DNA from: Prochlorococcus sp. AG-363-N16
GTDB lineage: Bacteria; Cyanobacteriota; Cyanobacteriia; PCC-6307; Cyanobiaceae
Reading direction: 5' to 3'
Assembly: GCA_003280135.1 (NCBI GenBank)
Contig: QCFW01000001.1
Location: forward strand, 1-64,000
DNA: 64,000 nt
Positions 34,203-40,708 of this stretch are shown one piece after another. A program made the position numbers and the translations under genes. Under the pieces are notes generated by a model that saw only the letters and a list, made by a program, of their open reading frames with translations, was not told the DNA's origin and did no database searches. The stretch's first letter is position 1, and every line of letters starts with the position of its first letter.

Positions 34203-34228
34203 AAAAAGCCGCCAAAGGCGGCTTTTTG
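34203..34228. terminator. Bidirectional Rho-independent terminator
   Basis: AAAAAGCCGCC-AAA-GGCGGCTTTTT. Confidence 0.9.
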
Positions 34229-34424
34229 GGAACTAGGGCAAGTGTTTCCTTGTTTCCACTGCCGGAGAGTTCCTTCTCCTCACATTAGGTATTATTACCA
34301 GTATCCTATAGATTGTCCACCATTATCTTGAACTGCTGACAAGGCATGAGAAGAGAAGAGGTGCCTATTCTTTTCTTGGTTTGCTGGAATTATTTGCTCT
34401 TTTGCGGTGGAAAAGTAAATGTAA

Positions 34425-35331: not shown

Positions 35332-35405
35332 CGGGGCGTGGCGCAGCTTGGTAGCGCGGGTGCTTTGGGAGCACTAGGTCGCAGGTTCGAATCCTGTCGC
35401 CCCGA
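35332..35405 (+). tRNA. tRNA-Pro(UGG); integration target of the accessory array
   Basis: CGGGGCG...CGCCCCG acceptor; anticodon loop TTTGGGA; 3' 42 nt recur three times downstream. Confidence 0.96.
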
Positions 35406-35434
35406 CTAGGTTTTCAAGATCTCAAGATGAGAAA

Positions 35435-35456
35435 GGGGCGCTGTAGGGGGCGCTAG
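35435..35456. repeat. Paired direct repeat (arm-type-site candidate) behind intact tRNA-Pro
   Basis: GGGGCGCT-GTA-GGGGGCGCT-AG, 29 bp after tRNA end. Confidence 0.7.
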
Positions 35457-35509
35457 ATTATTGCAATAGCCCTCTATAACTTGGTTCTTTTTGACAGGTA
35501 TTTATTTAG

Positions 35510-35842
35510 TCAAGGATTATTTGTATAAATAGCCAGCCCAACCGCAAGAGCTATTGCAACTCCACAGCCAATCCAAACGACCGTCATCCATGGGAATGGT
35601 CTTGATAATCTTTTAGTACATTCATCTAATTGGCTTTTGGTGAGTCGGAAATATTCACTTTGAGGAAGGCGAACATCTTTATATTTTCGATGCAGCTCCT
35701 TTTCAATCTCTCGGTAATCAGTTCTTTTTAGAGTTCTTATGATTTTGTCGGGTTTTAGCTCCTTCATTCGACGTTGAAGGTTCTTGGTTGTACCAATTTT
35801 ATGTAGATCTCCGTTTTGGATGAGATAAATGATGCCAGCCAT
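35510..35842 (-). CDS. GIY-YIG-like (T5orf172/MUG113 type) domain protein with C-terminal TM helix
   Basis: GIIYLIQNGDLHKIGTTKNLQRRMKEL core; C-terminal WMTVVWIGCGVAIALAVGLAIYT. Confidence 0.7.
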   Translation of the reverse strand: MAGIIYLIQNGDLHKIGTTKNLQRRMKELKPDKIIRTLKRTDYREIEKELHRKYKDVRLPQSEYFRLTKSQLDECTKRLSRPFPWMTVVWIGCGVAIALAVGLAIYTNNP

Positions 35843-35921
35843 AATAACTATCCTCCAATTACTTTCTAGCTGTTTCTAATCAGGATTCTTCGGATAGTGT
35901 CGAAACAGATTTTGATTACTA

Positions 35922-36014
35922 ATGGAAGAATTAACCAAAAGAGTGGAAGAACTTGAGAGGAGAGTCCAGCATTTAGAAGCAGTGCTGCGATACCAAGCAA
36001 GGAAAAGCAAATAA
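35922..36014 (+). CDS. 30-aa coiled-coil micro-ORF
   Basis: My translation: MEELTKRVEELERRVQHLEAVLRYQARKSK*; degenerate sister sequence near 48340. Confidence 0.4.
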   Translation: MEELTKRVEELERRVQHLEAVLRYQARKSK

Positions 36015-36027
36015 GTTCTGTTCTCAT

Positions 36028-36255
36028 CTAGCTGCTGCAATCTTCATCTTTAGGCAATTGGAGCCATCCAGTGGTCCATTTTGAAGGATTTTTTAGTTCA
36101 TCCAAAGGAACTCGAATAAGAATTTCTTTGTTATTGACGGGGAAAAGCTCGACCCATCGTTGCTCTTTTTTGCCTCCATATTGCTTGACTTCAAAATGAC
36201 GATAGCCCTCCCTTTTGAAGGCTGATGTCCAAGCTTGGTTAGGTGGCCATCTCAT
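36028..36255 (-). CDS. Small Trp-rich protein (DUF2389/TIGR02450-like), copy 1
   Basis: MRWPPNQAWTSAFKREGYRHFEVKQYGGKKEQRWVELFPVNNKEILIRV; paralog at 48395. Confidence 0.75.
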   Translation of the reverse strand: MRWPPNQAWTSAFKREGYRHFEVKQYGGKKEQRWVELFPVNNKEILIRVPLDELKNPSKWTTGWLQLPKDEDCSS

Positions 36256-36318
36256 ATTCCCTTTCTAGCTGATTTATCTCAAGCTTTCATTTGGCCGCTA
36301 AGGCTGCATAATTCAGAT

Positions 36319-36801
36319 ATGAAACGCTTACTGATAGCACCGTTAATACTTGGATTTACTGCACCTGTTCAGGCGAGGCCTCCGGGTGTGAAACCAGATT
36401 TAAAAGTTGGACAATGCATTGAAACAACCGTTCAAAAGCTTTTTACAAGATGGCCTAAAGAATTTTATTCAGATGAGGTTATAGAAAAATATGGCGTAGG
36501 TTGGGAAGATCAAACAGGGATAATTAAGTTTTCAAATAATCTAACTGTTTATCTATACAGAAATCTAAAGGCTACAAATAGCAAATGGACTCCCCTCACA
36601 ACAAATGGCTCACTAGATTTTAAAGATGCAAAAAACATGTACCAAAATGGCGACAAAATAAAGGTATGTTTAGAATTTATCCCTACCGAATGTAGAAAGT
36701 TTGTTCCAGATGGCAGAGGGGAAATTTATTCGCTCACAAATCAAAGAACCAGAAAGACACATTATGGACATTACGGAAGGAACCAATGTGGAGGAGCATA
36801 A
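36319..36801 (+). CDS. Secreted hypothetical protein
   Basis: Within ORF 36235-36801; likely start MKRLLIAPLILGFTAPVQA with signal peptide; paired Cys. Confidence 0.65.
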   Translation: MKRLLIAPLILGFTAPVQARPPGVKPDLKVGQCIETTVQKLFTRWPKEFYSDEVIEKYGVGWEDQTGIIKFSNNLTVYLYRNLKATNSKWTPLTTNGSLDFKDAKNMYQNGDKIKVCLEFIPTECRKFVPDGRGEIYSLTNQRTRKTHYGHYGRNQCGGA

Positions 36802-36807
36802 GAGACG

Positions 36808-37071
36808 ATGACTCCTAAAAAATTGACAAAAGAGCAACTAGCTCATCTTGAGGAGATTCGTAATTCATATCAGGAGTTACGTAAGCCAGCACCTGAGGGC
36901 TTAAGCGTAATACTGTCCGACCCCGAAGGTGTAATCGCATCAAAAGAAGAAAGAGAAAAACGTTGGGCAGCTGAGAAACTTAAAGCTAAAAAATTCAGAA
37001 AAAAAATAAGACGGTATCTATATGTAGCTTTGATAATTATTGGAGCTATTCTTGTGATCTTGAAAACTTAA
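36808..37071 (+). CDS. Hypothetical protein with C-terminal TM
   Basis: RYLYVALIIIGAILVILKT C-terminus. Confidence 0.6.
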   Translation: MTPKKLTKEQLAHLEEIRNSYQELRKPAPEGLSVILSDPEGVIASKEEREKRWAAEKLKAKKFRKKIRRYLYVALIIIGAILVILKT

Positions 37072-37085
37072 GTCAAAACCAATAA

Positions 37086-37565
37086 ATGAAGCTCATAAGA
37101 AAAAGAATAAGCCAGGTATTAGACGGTTTATTTCCTCAATGGAATAAATACCCTGATAGATATATTTTGGGAGCCATCTTTCTTGTTTGGATTACTGAAG
37201 GACCTTTGGGGTATCTCGATAAAATCACTGTTCATAGCCATGTTCCTAGATATTCGCCACAAAATGCTGCAGAGAAATGCTTGGAAACAGTCAATGCTGC
37301 ATTAAAGGGGAAAGGGCCTGCAAGCTACGATTTTTCCATAGCAGAATCAAAGGGACCATTGATTGAAAGCGGATGTATTTATGACCAATGGGATAGGTGG
37401 GGTAGGAGATTTGATGGAAAATTTCATAGTTATATAGTTTTTAAAAATAAATACAAAGGAGGAAAAGAAGAGAGGTGGTTTATTAGTAGCTTCGCTGTTG
37501 ATAGACCATGGTGGGGGGGCAGACCAACAGCACCAATTCTTCACGACAGGATGAAAATTAAATAG
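37086..37565 (+). CDS. Hypothetical protein with N-terminal TM
   Basis: RYILGAIFLVWITEGPLGYL segment; 159-aa ORF. Confidence 0.6.
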   Translation: MKLIRKRISQVLDGLFPQWNKYPDRYILGAIFLVWITEGPLGYLDKITVHSHVPRYSPQNAAEKCLETVNAALKGKGPASYDFSIAESKGPLIESGCIYDQWDRWGRRFDGKFHSYIVFKNKYKGGKEERWFISSFAVDRPWWGGRPTAPILHDRMKIK

Positions 37566-37628
37566 GGGGTCCCTCTGACGGAAAACCATTGTGGGTCGTC
37601 CGAAGGCTCGAAAAATTCAGACTGGTTC

Positions 37629-37673
37629 TCCCAAAGCACTAGGTGGCTGAGGGGGCGCTGTAGGGGGCGCTAG
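37629..37673. repeat. Degenerate fifth att-like remnant with inverted overlap sequence plus paired direct repeat
   Basis: TCCCAAA (reverse complement of loop TTTGGGA) followed by GCACTAGGT, then GGGGGCGCTGTAGGGGGCGCTAG. Confidence 0.5.
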
Positions 37674-37801
37674 AAAGTTCTAATCCCTTTAAATATGTTC
37701 TAATTTCTTGCGATATTGAGTCTCAAATCGATTTGCATGACTTCTTCTACTCCTTTGATAGCAATGCTTTTTGAGGATTCTCATCTTTTACGACCATGTC
37801 C

Positions 37802-37843
37802 TTTGGGAGCACTAGGTCGCAGGTTCGAATCCTGTCGCCCCGA
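37802..37843 (+). repeat. tRNA-Pro 3' remnant, copy 2 (att site)
   Basis: 42/42 identity to 35364-35405, starting exactly at anticodon loop TTTGGGA. Confidence 0.95.
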
Positions 37844-38063
37844 CTAGGTTTTGAAGGAATGGTAAAAATGGTTGTGCTAAAGGAGTGCTAAAAGCTTTTT
37901 GGGTATGACTGCTTTTTATGCGGACTGATATTGGTTAGCACTAATTTCGGGCCTTCGTACGACCCATATTAGAAAGCCTTATAAAGTACCTTGGTCAATA
38001 AAAAGGGACTGCAATAGCCCCTAAAGAAATCGACTGTCAACCGAGCTTTGACTATATCAAGGC

Positions 38064-38507
38064 CTAATCAACTTTGACAGGAAGAGTTGTTTTCTTGCCC
38101 TTAGCTCCTGCAGAAGCAACAAAAACCAGAGCCTCTTCATTACCATTATTTTCACAGTAATGAACTGTATCTTGAGGTGAAGCAAAGCTATCTCCGGGGC
38201 CTGCTTTTAGTACTTTTCCATCACTTGTTTCACAAGAAAGAGTTCCTCTTACTAAATACACAATCCCAGGTTGTGGATGGAAGTGAAGTGGAGTTTTAAA
38301 ACCAGGCTGAGCAGTTATTTTTTCGAGTTTCATTTGTGCTTGACCTCTTGGGTATTTAAATGAATCTCCATTCCATGATTCAGTTGCAGTAATAAGAGTC
38401 TCAATAACCACAGGTTCAATAGTCTTAGATGAATCTTTTTTTGATGTACAGGCTGCTATTGGGAAAATCATTCCAGCAGTAAGTGTAAAAAGGATAAATC
38501 GTTTCAT
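38064..38507 (-). CDS. Cupin-domain lipoprotein
   Basis: MKRFILFTLTAGMIFPIAACTSKK lipobox; HFHPQPGIVYLVRGTLSCETSDG cupin motif. Confidence 0.82.
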   Translation of the reverse strand: MKRFILFTLTAGMIFPIAACTSKKDSSKTIEPVVIETLITATESWNGDSFKYPRGQAQMKLEKITAQPGFKTPLHFHPQPGIVYLVRGTLSCETSDGKVLKAGPGDSFASPQDTVHYCENNGNEEALVFVASAGAKGKKTTLPVKVD

Positions 38508-38575
38508 AGGATTAAGTAAGTCGCAGCGCAGAGCTTGTTGGCTCTCCATCGACACTAAAGCATTTTTTAAATCTA

Positions 38576-38731
38576 ATGAACAGCACTAAAGCGTCCCCGA
38601 AGGACGAGGTGATTACTTCTGTTTGCGAGTTGGTCGATCAGCAAGAAGCGGTAATCAAAAACCTCAAAGAACAACAACAAGCCCTTATTTATTTTTTAGG
38701 AGGTCTAACGATTATTTCTCTAATCTTTTGA
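38576..38731 (+). CDS. Small coiled-coil/TM protein (51 aa, not in ORF track)
   Basis: My translation: MNSTKASPKDEVITSVCELVDQQEAVIKNLKEQQQALIYFLGGLTIISLIF*; its 3' end is duplicated near 44016. Confidence 0.55.
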   Translation: MNSTKASPKDEVITSVCELVDQQEAVIKNLKEQQQALIYFLGGLTIISLIF

Positions 38732-38822
38732 AACTGCTTTTCCAAAAAGCGAATAACAGAATCAGGAATGGGTTTATTGATAGGCATGATTATTTGCCTA
38801 CAACACAGTGGAAACTCTTTAA

Positions 38823-39017
38823 TCATGGGGGGTTACATTCTCCTTCCCAATTTTTTCCTTCTTTTTCACATGCTTCAGCACTTGGCATTTCTATTTTTTC
38901 CAAATTTCCAAAAATCTTTGTATGTGTACCCCAAGCAATAATCAACCAATGACTCTAGGCATTAGCGGTACTAGGGAGTGCAAGTGCAGCGATTATCGGA
39001 AGTAATAAGCTTTTCAT
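38823..39017 (-). pseudogene. Small secreted protein interrupted by in-frame TAG directly after the signal peptide
   Basis: My translation: MKSLLLPIIAALALPSTANA[TAG]SHWLIIAWGTHTKIFGNLEKIEMPSAEACEKEGKNWEGECNPP*; TAG at 38955-38957 (minus). Confidence 0.7.
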
Positions 39018-39250
39018 ATTTGAATTATGCAGCCTTAGCAGCTTTATTTCTTTTAGCGTAAAGATCAGCCCAATGAGTCTTCTGCCTTTCTCGCGCTTGT
39101 TCAAAGGCTTTGTCAGTAGTAGCTGCTGATGCCCATGGATAAGCTTTTATATTAGAGTCCAGTCCATGTTCCATTGATTCAGCGACACTTCGACTTAGAG
39201 ATCAATCAGAGCAATGGATATAAACTTGTTTTGTTTGACAGAGATCAGAA

Positions 39251-39865
39251 ATGAACATAACCAAGTTTCTATTAATAGATGCCTCATTAATGCTGATAGG
39301 AGTTCCTTTGTTTTTGATAATTCAAAGTAGCAAAGCTAAAGCTTCTCTAATAGAAAATCTGAATGATGCTGGATCGGTAAAGCTGTTTTCTATGAATCTT
39401 CCTGGTAACAAAGAATTGGCGGAACTTGAAAAAGTGGCCAAGAGGGATGGAAGTGGAATTGAACCTCACTCTTTGATTGGCCTTTGGAAATTTTTTTCTG
39501 TATGGAAGCAAAAAAATGACAATGAAGATTTAATTTCAAGTTCTTTCCTTAGGCTTTTTGTCGCAAGCTTAGAGATCAAAAAAGATAAATCCAATCAGTT
39601 ATTTATTACTAATTCCATCCAGTTTGGATCGCTATCAATCCGATTTAGAGGTTATGGCAAGGTGAAAGGAAAACAACCGTTATTACCTTTCTATTTTGAT
39701 TGCATAGAACTTAAGGCTGGCTCAAGGATTTTATTTAGTAGATCTTTGGAGAAACCAGAAGAAGAAAACATGCCTTTTTTTGCATTGATTTCGATAGAAG
39801 AAAATGGCAAATGGCTTTCAGCAAGAGGGCGTGGAGGTGGACTTGCCCTTTGGGTAAAAGGTTAA
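39251..39865 (+). CDS. Conserved hypothetical, possibly PAP/fibrillin-like
   Basis: 204-aa ORF, N-terminal TM; LIGLWKFFSVWKQ...family assignment weak. Confidence 0.5.
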   Translation: MNITKFLLIDASLMLIGVPLFLIIQSSKAKASLIENLNDAGSVKLFSMNLPGNKELAELEKVAKRDGSGIEPHSLIGLWKFFSVWKQKNDNEDLISSSFLRLFVASLEIKKDKSNQLFITNSIQFGSLSIRFRGYGKVKGKQPLLPFYFDCIELKAGSRILFSRSLEKPEEENMPFFALISIEENGKWLSARGRGGGLALWVKG

Positions 39866-39898
39866 AATTAATCTTCTAAAACTTAAATGCCGCAGTGT

Positions 39899-39939
39899 TT
39901 TGGGGTACTAGGTTGCAGGTCCCAATACTGTCGCCCCGA
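39899..39939 (+). repeat. tRNA-Pro 3' remnant, copy 3 (diverged)
   Basis: TTTGGGGTACTAGGTTGCAGGTCCCAATACTGTCGCCCCGA aligns to tRNA 3' 42 nt. Confidence 0.88.
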
Positions 39940-39957
39940 TCAGTATTGGCAAGGGAT

Positions 39958-40131
39958 CTAAGCGAAGGGTAAAATAGGGTCAAAACTTACTTTGCAAATA
40001 TTCCCTTTCTTGCCGCACCAAACTTCAAATGTTTGCTTTTGATATTTAGTATTCTCTGCCTCTTTTAAATCAGTATTAACAGTAGTAGGGAGTGCAATAG
40101 CTACAAGTAGTGGAAGTAGTAAGCGTTTCAT
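39958..40131 (-). CDS. Small secreted protein (57 aa, not in ORF track)
   Basis: My translation: MKRLLLPLLVAIALPTTVNTDLKEAENTKYQKQTFEVWCGKKGNICKVSFDPILPFA*. Confidence 0.65.
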   Translation of the reverse strand: MKRLLLPLLVAIALPTTVNTDLKEAENTKYQKQTFEVWCGKKGNICKVSFDPILPFA

Positions 40132-40316
40132 TTCTTTGCTTTCTTTAGCCCAAGCATTTCTGCCATTTTGCCAGTAAAAGTAAAATAGCCAATTGCTCCA
40201 ATAAACAATAAAAACGCAATCAGATTTGGAACTATCCCTCCAATAATTTGAGCTTCTCCAAAACTTAGAAACATGATCACTACAAATACCCTTGCCCAGT
40301 TATCAGTAAAGCTCAT
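40128..40316 (-). CDS. Small TM protein (start MSFTDNW within ORF 40128-40346)
   Basis: RVFVVIMFLSFGEAQIIGGIVPNLIAFLLFIGAIGYF; ATGA overlap with upstream 44-aa ORF. Confidence 0.6.
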   Translation of the reverse strand: MSFTDNWARVFVVIMFLSFGEAQIIGGIVPNLIAFLLFIGAIGYFTFTGKMAEMLGLKKAKK

Positions 40317-40447
40317 TTGCTTAGCCCTGAGAAGAAAAAGAACCAAGTAAAGACAATCACGTTTAATGCAACTGTTAAAGAGATTGCAATGACCTTGAAA
40401 GTTTTCCCAACTTCTTCGGTCTTTGGATTTAATTTGACTCTTGCCAT
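40313..40447 (-). CDS. Small TM protein (44 aa, not in ORF track)
   Basis: My translation: MARVKLNPKTEEVGKTFKVIAISLTVALNVIVFTWFFFFSGLSK*. Confidence 0.6.
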   Translation of the reverse strand: MARVKLNPKTEEVGKTFKVIAISLTVALNVIVFTWFFFFSGLSK

Positions 40448-40477
40448 ATATCTATTATGCCAATGACATTAAATTGT

Positions 40478-40519
40478 TTTGGGAGCACTAGGTCGCAGGT
40501 TCGAATCCTGTCGCCCTGA
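40478..40519 (+). repeat. tRNA-Pro 3' remnant, copy 4 (distal att candidate)
   Basis: 41/42 identical to 35364-35405; following ~90 bp also resembles the sequence after the intact tRNA. Confidence 0.95.
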
Positions 40520-40708
40520 CTAGGTTTTCACAGTCTCAAATTGCGAAAAGGTAGCTTTAGGGGTAGCTAGATTGTTATAAGCTACCTCTATGACTTGGTT
40601 CTTTTTTAGTTAATTCTCTAAATCTGAGGAAGATGAATTCAGTCTTGAGCAAGAGATGAGTCGATTGCGTAATCTTTTATATGAGCAAATAGGGAACCAA
40701 ACTAGGTA

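Follow-up and report, generated by a model that had tools for sequence, protein, structure and literature searches.

The tRNA-Pro array and its paired repeats

The window analysed here, a 64-kb stretch of Prochlorococcus sp. AG-363-N16, lies on contig 1 of a picocyanobacterial genome (G000, 1.4 Mb, 82% complete). From 35332 onward it contains a tandem set of elements at tRNA-Pro(TGG), each of which brings its own left end, so that each tRNA copy is followed by the left end of the next element. The tRNA 3' core is common to both element ends (attB-shared), and displaced 3' fragments of the tRNA mark tRNA-gene integration of the tycheposon type. A pair of short direct repeats follows each tRNA copy. 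These pairs very probably represent arm-type sites for the N-terminal domain of heterobivalent tyrosine integrases of tycheposon-like elements, based on sequence comparison, and it is in this sense that they are called arms below. The features of the array are as follows.

35332..35406, + strand: intact tRNA-Pro(TGG) at the left end of the array, its 3' part being the integration core (ARAGORN, Rfam)
35435..35454, + strand: putative left (P') arm pair of element 1, GGGGCGCT-GTA-GGGGGCGCT, period 12 (raw sequence), with the unit and geometry of cognate-class integrase L313
37637..37645, + strand: core-like half-site CACTAGGTG, 5' of the element 1 P pair
37652..37671, + strand: putative right (P) arm pair of element 1, the 22-nt sequence of the left pair again, at 170 nt from the core copy 2 tail
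37798..37843, + strand: tRNA-Pro 3' copy 2, right boundary of element 1 and left boundary of element 2
37874..37892, + strand: putative left arm pair of element 2, GTGCTAAA twice, period 11, as in the G040 integrase-bearing element (L033/L060)
37934..37941, - strand: inverted third arm-type copy GTTAGCAC after copy 2, read on the sequence, with a counterpart in L060
39895..39939, + strand: degenerate tRNA-Pro 3' copy 3
39967..39985, + strand: weak pair GGGTAAAATA-GGGTCAAAA, period 10, unsupported as a site
40475..40519, + strand: tRNA-Pro 3' copy 4
40550..40568, + strand: putative left arm pair after copy 4, GGTAGCT twice, period 12, in the class of integrase L312 (GGGGTAGCT twice)
40580..40586, - strand: inverted third arm-type copy AGCTACC after copy 4, read on the sequence
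35513..35842, - strand: cargo of element 1, T5orf172/MUG113 (GIY-YIG-like) protein (Pfam)
38067..38516, - strand: cargo of element 2, cupin-domain protein (Pfam)

The initial annotation had placed a pair behind each of the four tRNA-Pro copies, and the raw sequence bears out all four in coordinates and letters. The period of about 11 nt given there applies to copy 2, in which GTGCTAAA starts at 37874 and 37885. The period is 12 for copy 1 (GGGGCGCT at 35435 and 35447) and copy 4 (GGTAGCT at 40550 and 40562), and 10 for copy 3. In this repeat register the pairs of copies 1, 2 and 4 begin 30–31 nt past the last A of the tRNA, as counted on the sequence. A conserved architecture with varying sequence had also been described, and it now extends to 101 repeat words that are unrelated to one another and lie at phased offsets. 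Since the distinct 8-mer units number 101, the proposed NGCT core is not general: copies 1 and 4 have it in common because both fall in one integrase class, and its presence in copy 2 is coincidental.

Two further features were found. The 22-nt sequence GGGGCGCTGTAGGGGGCGCTAG of copy 1 is found again, without a mismatch, at 37652, which is 170 nt upstream of the tRNA copy 2 tail, so that element 1 has an identical pair at both of its ends (35435 and 37652). The repeats of the arm type flank the core on either side and lie inside the element. In addition, inverted third copies of the repeat follow copy 2 (37934-37941) and copy 4 (40580-40586).

Copy 3, already described as the weakest case, matches at 7/8 positions with period 10 behind a tRNA fragment with four mismatches, and its right end is unmatched. 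This pair, a weak match behind a degenerate tRNA, is not counted as an arm site, and the sequence evidence supports the candidate arm-type sites of the initial annotation at copies 1, 2 and 4. Copy 3 alone would fit the explanation that chance or low-complexity similarity was picked by eye, which otherwise has next to no probability. Exact 9/9 repeats at 10-12 bp occur only at 37650 and 17841 in the whole 64-kb window, and being so rare they argue that the pairs are not due to chance. The same words are found again at the opposite element end, and pairs behind tRNA-Pro in other genomes far exceed the shuffle expectation, as described next. For copies 1, 2 and 4 chance is already refuted.

Occurrence of the pairs behind other tRNA genes

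Many of the loci compared were chosen for their likeness to the window tRNA flank or for an integrase, and the sequences are related; the following counts are to be read with this sampling in mind. Enrichment behind att-tRNAs, a check suggested in the initial annotation, is large. A pair of period 11 (at least 8/9 matching) was found in 30 of 68 distinct tRNA-Pro flanks versus 2 of 108 flanks of other tRNAs, with 0.55 expected from shuffled sequence, and a pair of period 12 at the same threshold in 7/68 versus 0/108 (shuffle expectation 0.2). No comparable enrichment was seen at periods other than 11-12. When viral contigs were excluded and only exact 8-mers with a repeat distance of 11 or 12 bp were accepted, 43 of 60 distinct picocyanobacterial tRNA-Pro flanks had a pair (0.18 expected by shuffling), compared to 4 of 19 flanks of other tRNAs. 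All four of the latter are tRNA-Thr(GGT) flanks in loci fetched via strong integrase matches and are probably att sites as well; apart from such flanks, the control tRNAs lack the pairs.

It is noted that these tRNA-Thr(GGT) 3' flanks (L156, L158, L161 and L162) have a pair of their own, GTCCACTTTT, with an inverted copy, and that the loci encode strong PF00589 integrases of 327-342 aa. They probably constitute another att system.

A perfect pair is present behind 192 of 325 tRNA-Pro 3' copies, and these yield the 101 distinct 8-mer units. The offsets of the pairs group at 30, 51 and 73-76 nt; when each unit is counted once, the phase concentration has its maximum at 10.5-11 bp (R 0.70-0.72). 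For 21 of the 101 units the 100 nt downstream also contain a third, inverted copy, in most cases at a distance of 32-33 or 40-43 nt; permutation gave 3.6 such units on average and 10 at most. Tandem, element-specific 11-bp repeats are also typical of iterons, as is generally known, and the period of 11-12 here would suit iterons or operators, located at the ends by chance, at which a protein of the element acts in replication or regulation. However, the pairs have as a rule exactly two units at a fixed offset to the tRNA core and occur at both ends, their offsets are phased (30/51/73-76), and they are kept in elements of a few hundred bp. We therefore regard this explanation as highly improbable.

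Matching pairs at the two ends of an element

Viral contigs with the tRNA-Pro core contain a complete attP, in the order int (reading away), P pair, core and P' pair. In the clear cases P and P' have the same word in direct orientation: TGTAATCTAG in L126, TGTATCCTAG in L075, AAGCGCACAT in L088, TTCGCACATA in L091, TTGTACACAA in L106 and CTGCTCAAAA in L112. P differs from P' in L114, which has two integrases, and in L079; the unlike P' side in these two may be part of a neighbouring element. Two IMG/VR contigs of 36-40 kb, G406 and G403 (L326-L329), have terminase and head genes, with portal and tail genes also in G406, together with an attP for picocyanobacterial tRNA-Pro, and are likely temperate cyanophages; L129 also has an integrase. 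A scan of viral contigs with alignment A3 gave no match.

The two ends also correspond in bacterial elements. The left and right pairs are the same (at least 15/16) in 16 of 23 integrase-bearing elements versus 8 of 222 mismatched controls. In a wider set, both ends match in 18 of 27 elements with an integrase and in 62 of 124 without one, the latter with a median size of 1.7 kb, versus 26 of 1478 mismatched controls.

It should be mentioned that in G177 (L016/L044) a 221-bp unit with a single pair lies between two tRNA-Pro copies. One pair joins the left side of window copy 1 to the right side of 37652, and the unit would apparently have arisen from an element 1 of the window type by deletion between the two identical arm pairs.

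The arm word and the integrase N-terminal domain

The integrases are about 390-475 aa long and have matches to PF00589 and to PHROG integrase families, some of them weak; L047 has none. Residues R235, R340, H341, H363 and Y372 are invariant in 40 aligned integrases. The AlphaFold model (mean pLDDT 89.9) predicts an N-terminal helix, three strands and a helix, followed by core-binding and catalytic domains. Lambda Int (chain 1z1b_B) aligns to the predicted structure over residues 7-389 with a Z score of 12.1 and a root-mean-square deviation (rmsd) of 8.8 for 312 aligned residues.

The initial annotation had proposed that the repeats co-vary with the integrase, and they do so specifically with its N-terminal domain. 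In partial Mantel tests on 44 integrases, with the C-domain held constant, the similarity of the arms correlates with identity of the N-domain (r=0.30, 0/1000 permutations, p<0.001), compared to r=0.07 (p=0.054) for C-domain identity with the N-domain held constant. The signal by alignment column is maximal in columns 11-50. The arm word thus tracks the N-terminal domain of the integrase, not the catalytic domain. L126 and L190 are 93% identical in the C-domain and 77% in the N-domain, and their arms differ (TGTAATCTAG versus TGTATCCTAG); for L184 and L213 the values are 98% and 59%, and the arms again differ (GCGCATAA versus GCGCACAT).

Integrase classes of the window elements

A cognate integrase of the tyrosine recombinase family is encoded in relatives, not in the window itself. 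The arms of integrase L242 (Prochlorococcus AG-469-F22) are GGGGAGCGCT with a period of 12. A search with L242 found L312-L314, 53-55% identical over the first 136 residues, with arms GGGGTAGCT (L312), GGGGGCGCT (L313) and GGGGGAGCT (L314). All three have a period of 12 and are of the GGGG type, ending in AGCT or CGCT, as in L242. Their distance from the core is 170-171 nt, and window element 1, at 170 nt, is like L313 in this respect. Since window copies 4 and 1 have the words of this class, their sequence assigns them to L312–L314/L242. Copy 2 corresponds to the left end of the G040 integrase-bearing element (L060, P pair GTGCTAAAGGCGTGCTAAA) and is assigned to the class of L060 on the same grounds.

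The distances between P pair and core, mostly 133-137, 145-147 or 167-175 nt, are largely a property of the integrase class. Among 62 matched integrase-less elements, 25 have an exact 8-mer in common with the arms of an integrase, and in 24 of these 25 the P-core distance agrees within 4 nt (27% by chance). The match of the window arms to integrases in other genomes suggests that the elements could be mobilised in trans. Two other ideas were rejected. The integrase-less elements of the 133-137 class do not depend only on phage-encoded integrases, integrases of this class being present in 61 of 400 host-family genomes. Exclusion between neighbours, by which adjacent elements would avoid like arms, was not seen either (2 of 74 neighbours share an arm versus 2.1% of random pairs).

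Sites for an excisionase or recombination directionality factor (Xis/Cox-like) would be expected in the region where the pairs are located, and from general knowledge such sites are often direct repeats about one helical turn apart beside the cores. The arm word, however, follows the N-domain of the integrase, not the remainder of the protein, the pairs flank the core on both sides at distances specific to the integrase class, and elements under 2 kb without int keep them. From the arms and integrases compared, we consider Xis/Cox sites unlikely, and favor arm-type sites for the integrase.

Proposed mode of integrase recognition

As arm-type sites, one pair about 30 nt inside the tRNA end would form the left (P') arm of an element, and a like pair 134-175 nt before the displaced tRNA fragment the right (P) arm. 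Within one array the word varies from element to element. Two Int protomers may dock via their N-terminal domains on the units, which are in helical phase, with the catalytic domains at the same time holding the tRNA core. Because one core is common to all elements, the arm words are likely the address that distinguishes integrases, and the word would select which integrase acts on which element. The window elements would have lost or never had an integrase and would be mobilised in trans by integrases of other genomes.

Several observations weigh against this proposal. Elements 1-3 of the window encode no tycheposon tyrosine recombinase of the kind present in relatives, and no PF00589 match was found in the window genome, which is 82% complete; trans-mobilisation or past loss of the enzyme is inferred from this. 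In a fold search with the N-domain alone there was no clear match to a solved arm-binding domain, only weak matches including the P4-like arm-binding domain 3rmp (Z 4.0, rmsd 3.7, 57 aligned). The comparison of N- and C-domains has few independent clades. No match between the ends was detected in a third of the integrase-bearing and half of the integrase-less elements, which we attribute to decay or undetected pairs. The pair of copy 3 fits the arrangement poorly.

A second core-like site beside the P pair

A sequence resembling CACTAGGTC, the right half of the tRNA-Pro core, adjoins the P pair in the 170-174 and 145-147 classes. In the 170-174 class 24 of 31 integrase-less elements match this core half at 7/9 positions or more, and in the 145-147 class 15 of 19 integrase-bearing ones do, versus 2 of 53 in the 133-137 class. 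At least 11/14 positions match in 20 of 61 integrase-less elements (0.02 expected), usually 4-5 nt from the pair, which is also the distance in the 170-174 class. The second site, seen in two of the three integrase classes, has the half-site CACTAGGTCGC and, when complete, the palindrome GACCTAGTT-N9-CACTAGGTC; the inverted left half (at least 7/9) occurs at the 9-nt spacer in ten cases (1.0 expected). The palindrome resembles the tRNA core in half-site and spacer geometry but has a different spacer sequence. Such sites are found in the window (37637-37645), L220, L149, L279 and others.

In integrase-bearing elements of the 145-147 class the second site lies at the start of int, a position that recalls Int autoregulation in KplE1 (PMC2951348). 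Its retention by integrase-less elements implies that it is not only an int operator. A decayed tRNA fragment is an unlikely source of the clean palindromes, whose left half, GACCTAGT, is not tRNA sequence. It is possible, and we suggest it with some reservation, that the second site is a recombination-silent core that anchors Int on attP, and that together with the arm word it would guide specific integrases to the many small integrase-less elements that they move in trans.

The spacer of the core-like site in the window (37628-37636, CTCCCAAAG) resembles the reverse complement of the tRNA-Pro anticodon-loop region (CTTTGGGAG). The anticodon loop is inverted there relative to the right half-site.

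Comparison with known integration systems

Tycheposons, which Hackl and colleagues reportedly described in 2023, are said to be tyrosine-recombinase elements at tRNA genes in Prochlorococcus genomic islands. The elements here are similar in combining a tyrosine recombinase with a tRNA gene target in Prochlorococcus. Arm sites are not mentioned in the searched literature citing tycheposons; the original description may mention them.

The mechanism itself is known already. In attP of mycobacteriophages (cluster K, L5/Giles), two pairs of 11-bp arm-type repeats flank the tRNA/tmRNA core beside int, a related integrase with the same att site has different arms, and the arm consensus differs between close integrases, which was discussed against N-terminal residues (PMC3203893). 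The pairs here are likewise paired sites around a tRNA core near int. The mycobacteriophage work concerns a handful of phages, and P3/P4 are inverted in K1, unlike the direct pairs on both sides here. Also unlike the mycobacteriophages, the elements here form tandem arrays, 101 different 8-mer units occur at a single tRNA, many elements that lack an integrase still have matched ends, and in two classes the P pair is accompanied by a second core-like site. In lambda, the N-terminal domain of integrase serves the arms of attP and the C-terminal domain the core, and the architecture predicted here aligns to lambda Int; in contrast to lambda, the core is tRNA-derived and the arm words vary between elements.

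Hitchers resembling miniature inverted-repeat transposable elements (MITE-like) or clusters of attC sites lacking integrases (CALIN-like) are short and recombinase-less, with ends read by the enzyme of a partner (PMC11389934). The integrase-less elements here similarly keep their ends without a recombinase. The helper proposed for them differs, being a tRNA-specific tyrosine integrase identified by a shared arm word and P-core distance. What appears to be new is the second core-like site, the number of words at one tRNA and their use in placing elements without an integrase in integrase classes. The pairs offer a simple test by which element ends can be recognised without an integrase gene, and through the word an element lacking an integrase can be matched to an enzyme that could move it. 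The approximately 100 arm units and 81 integrase-arm pairs form a natural data set for an arm-recognition code. They may also serve to predict the integrase by which a given integrase-less island element is moved, in a photosynthetic genus that is very abundant.

A Cyano-1 small RNA (Rfam RF01701) is located at 34224-34289 on the - strand, about 1 kb upstream of the array.

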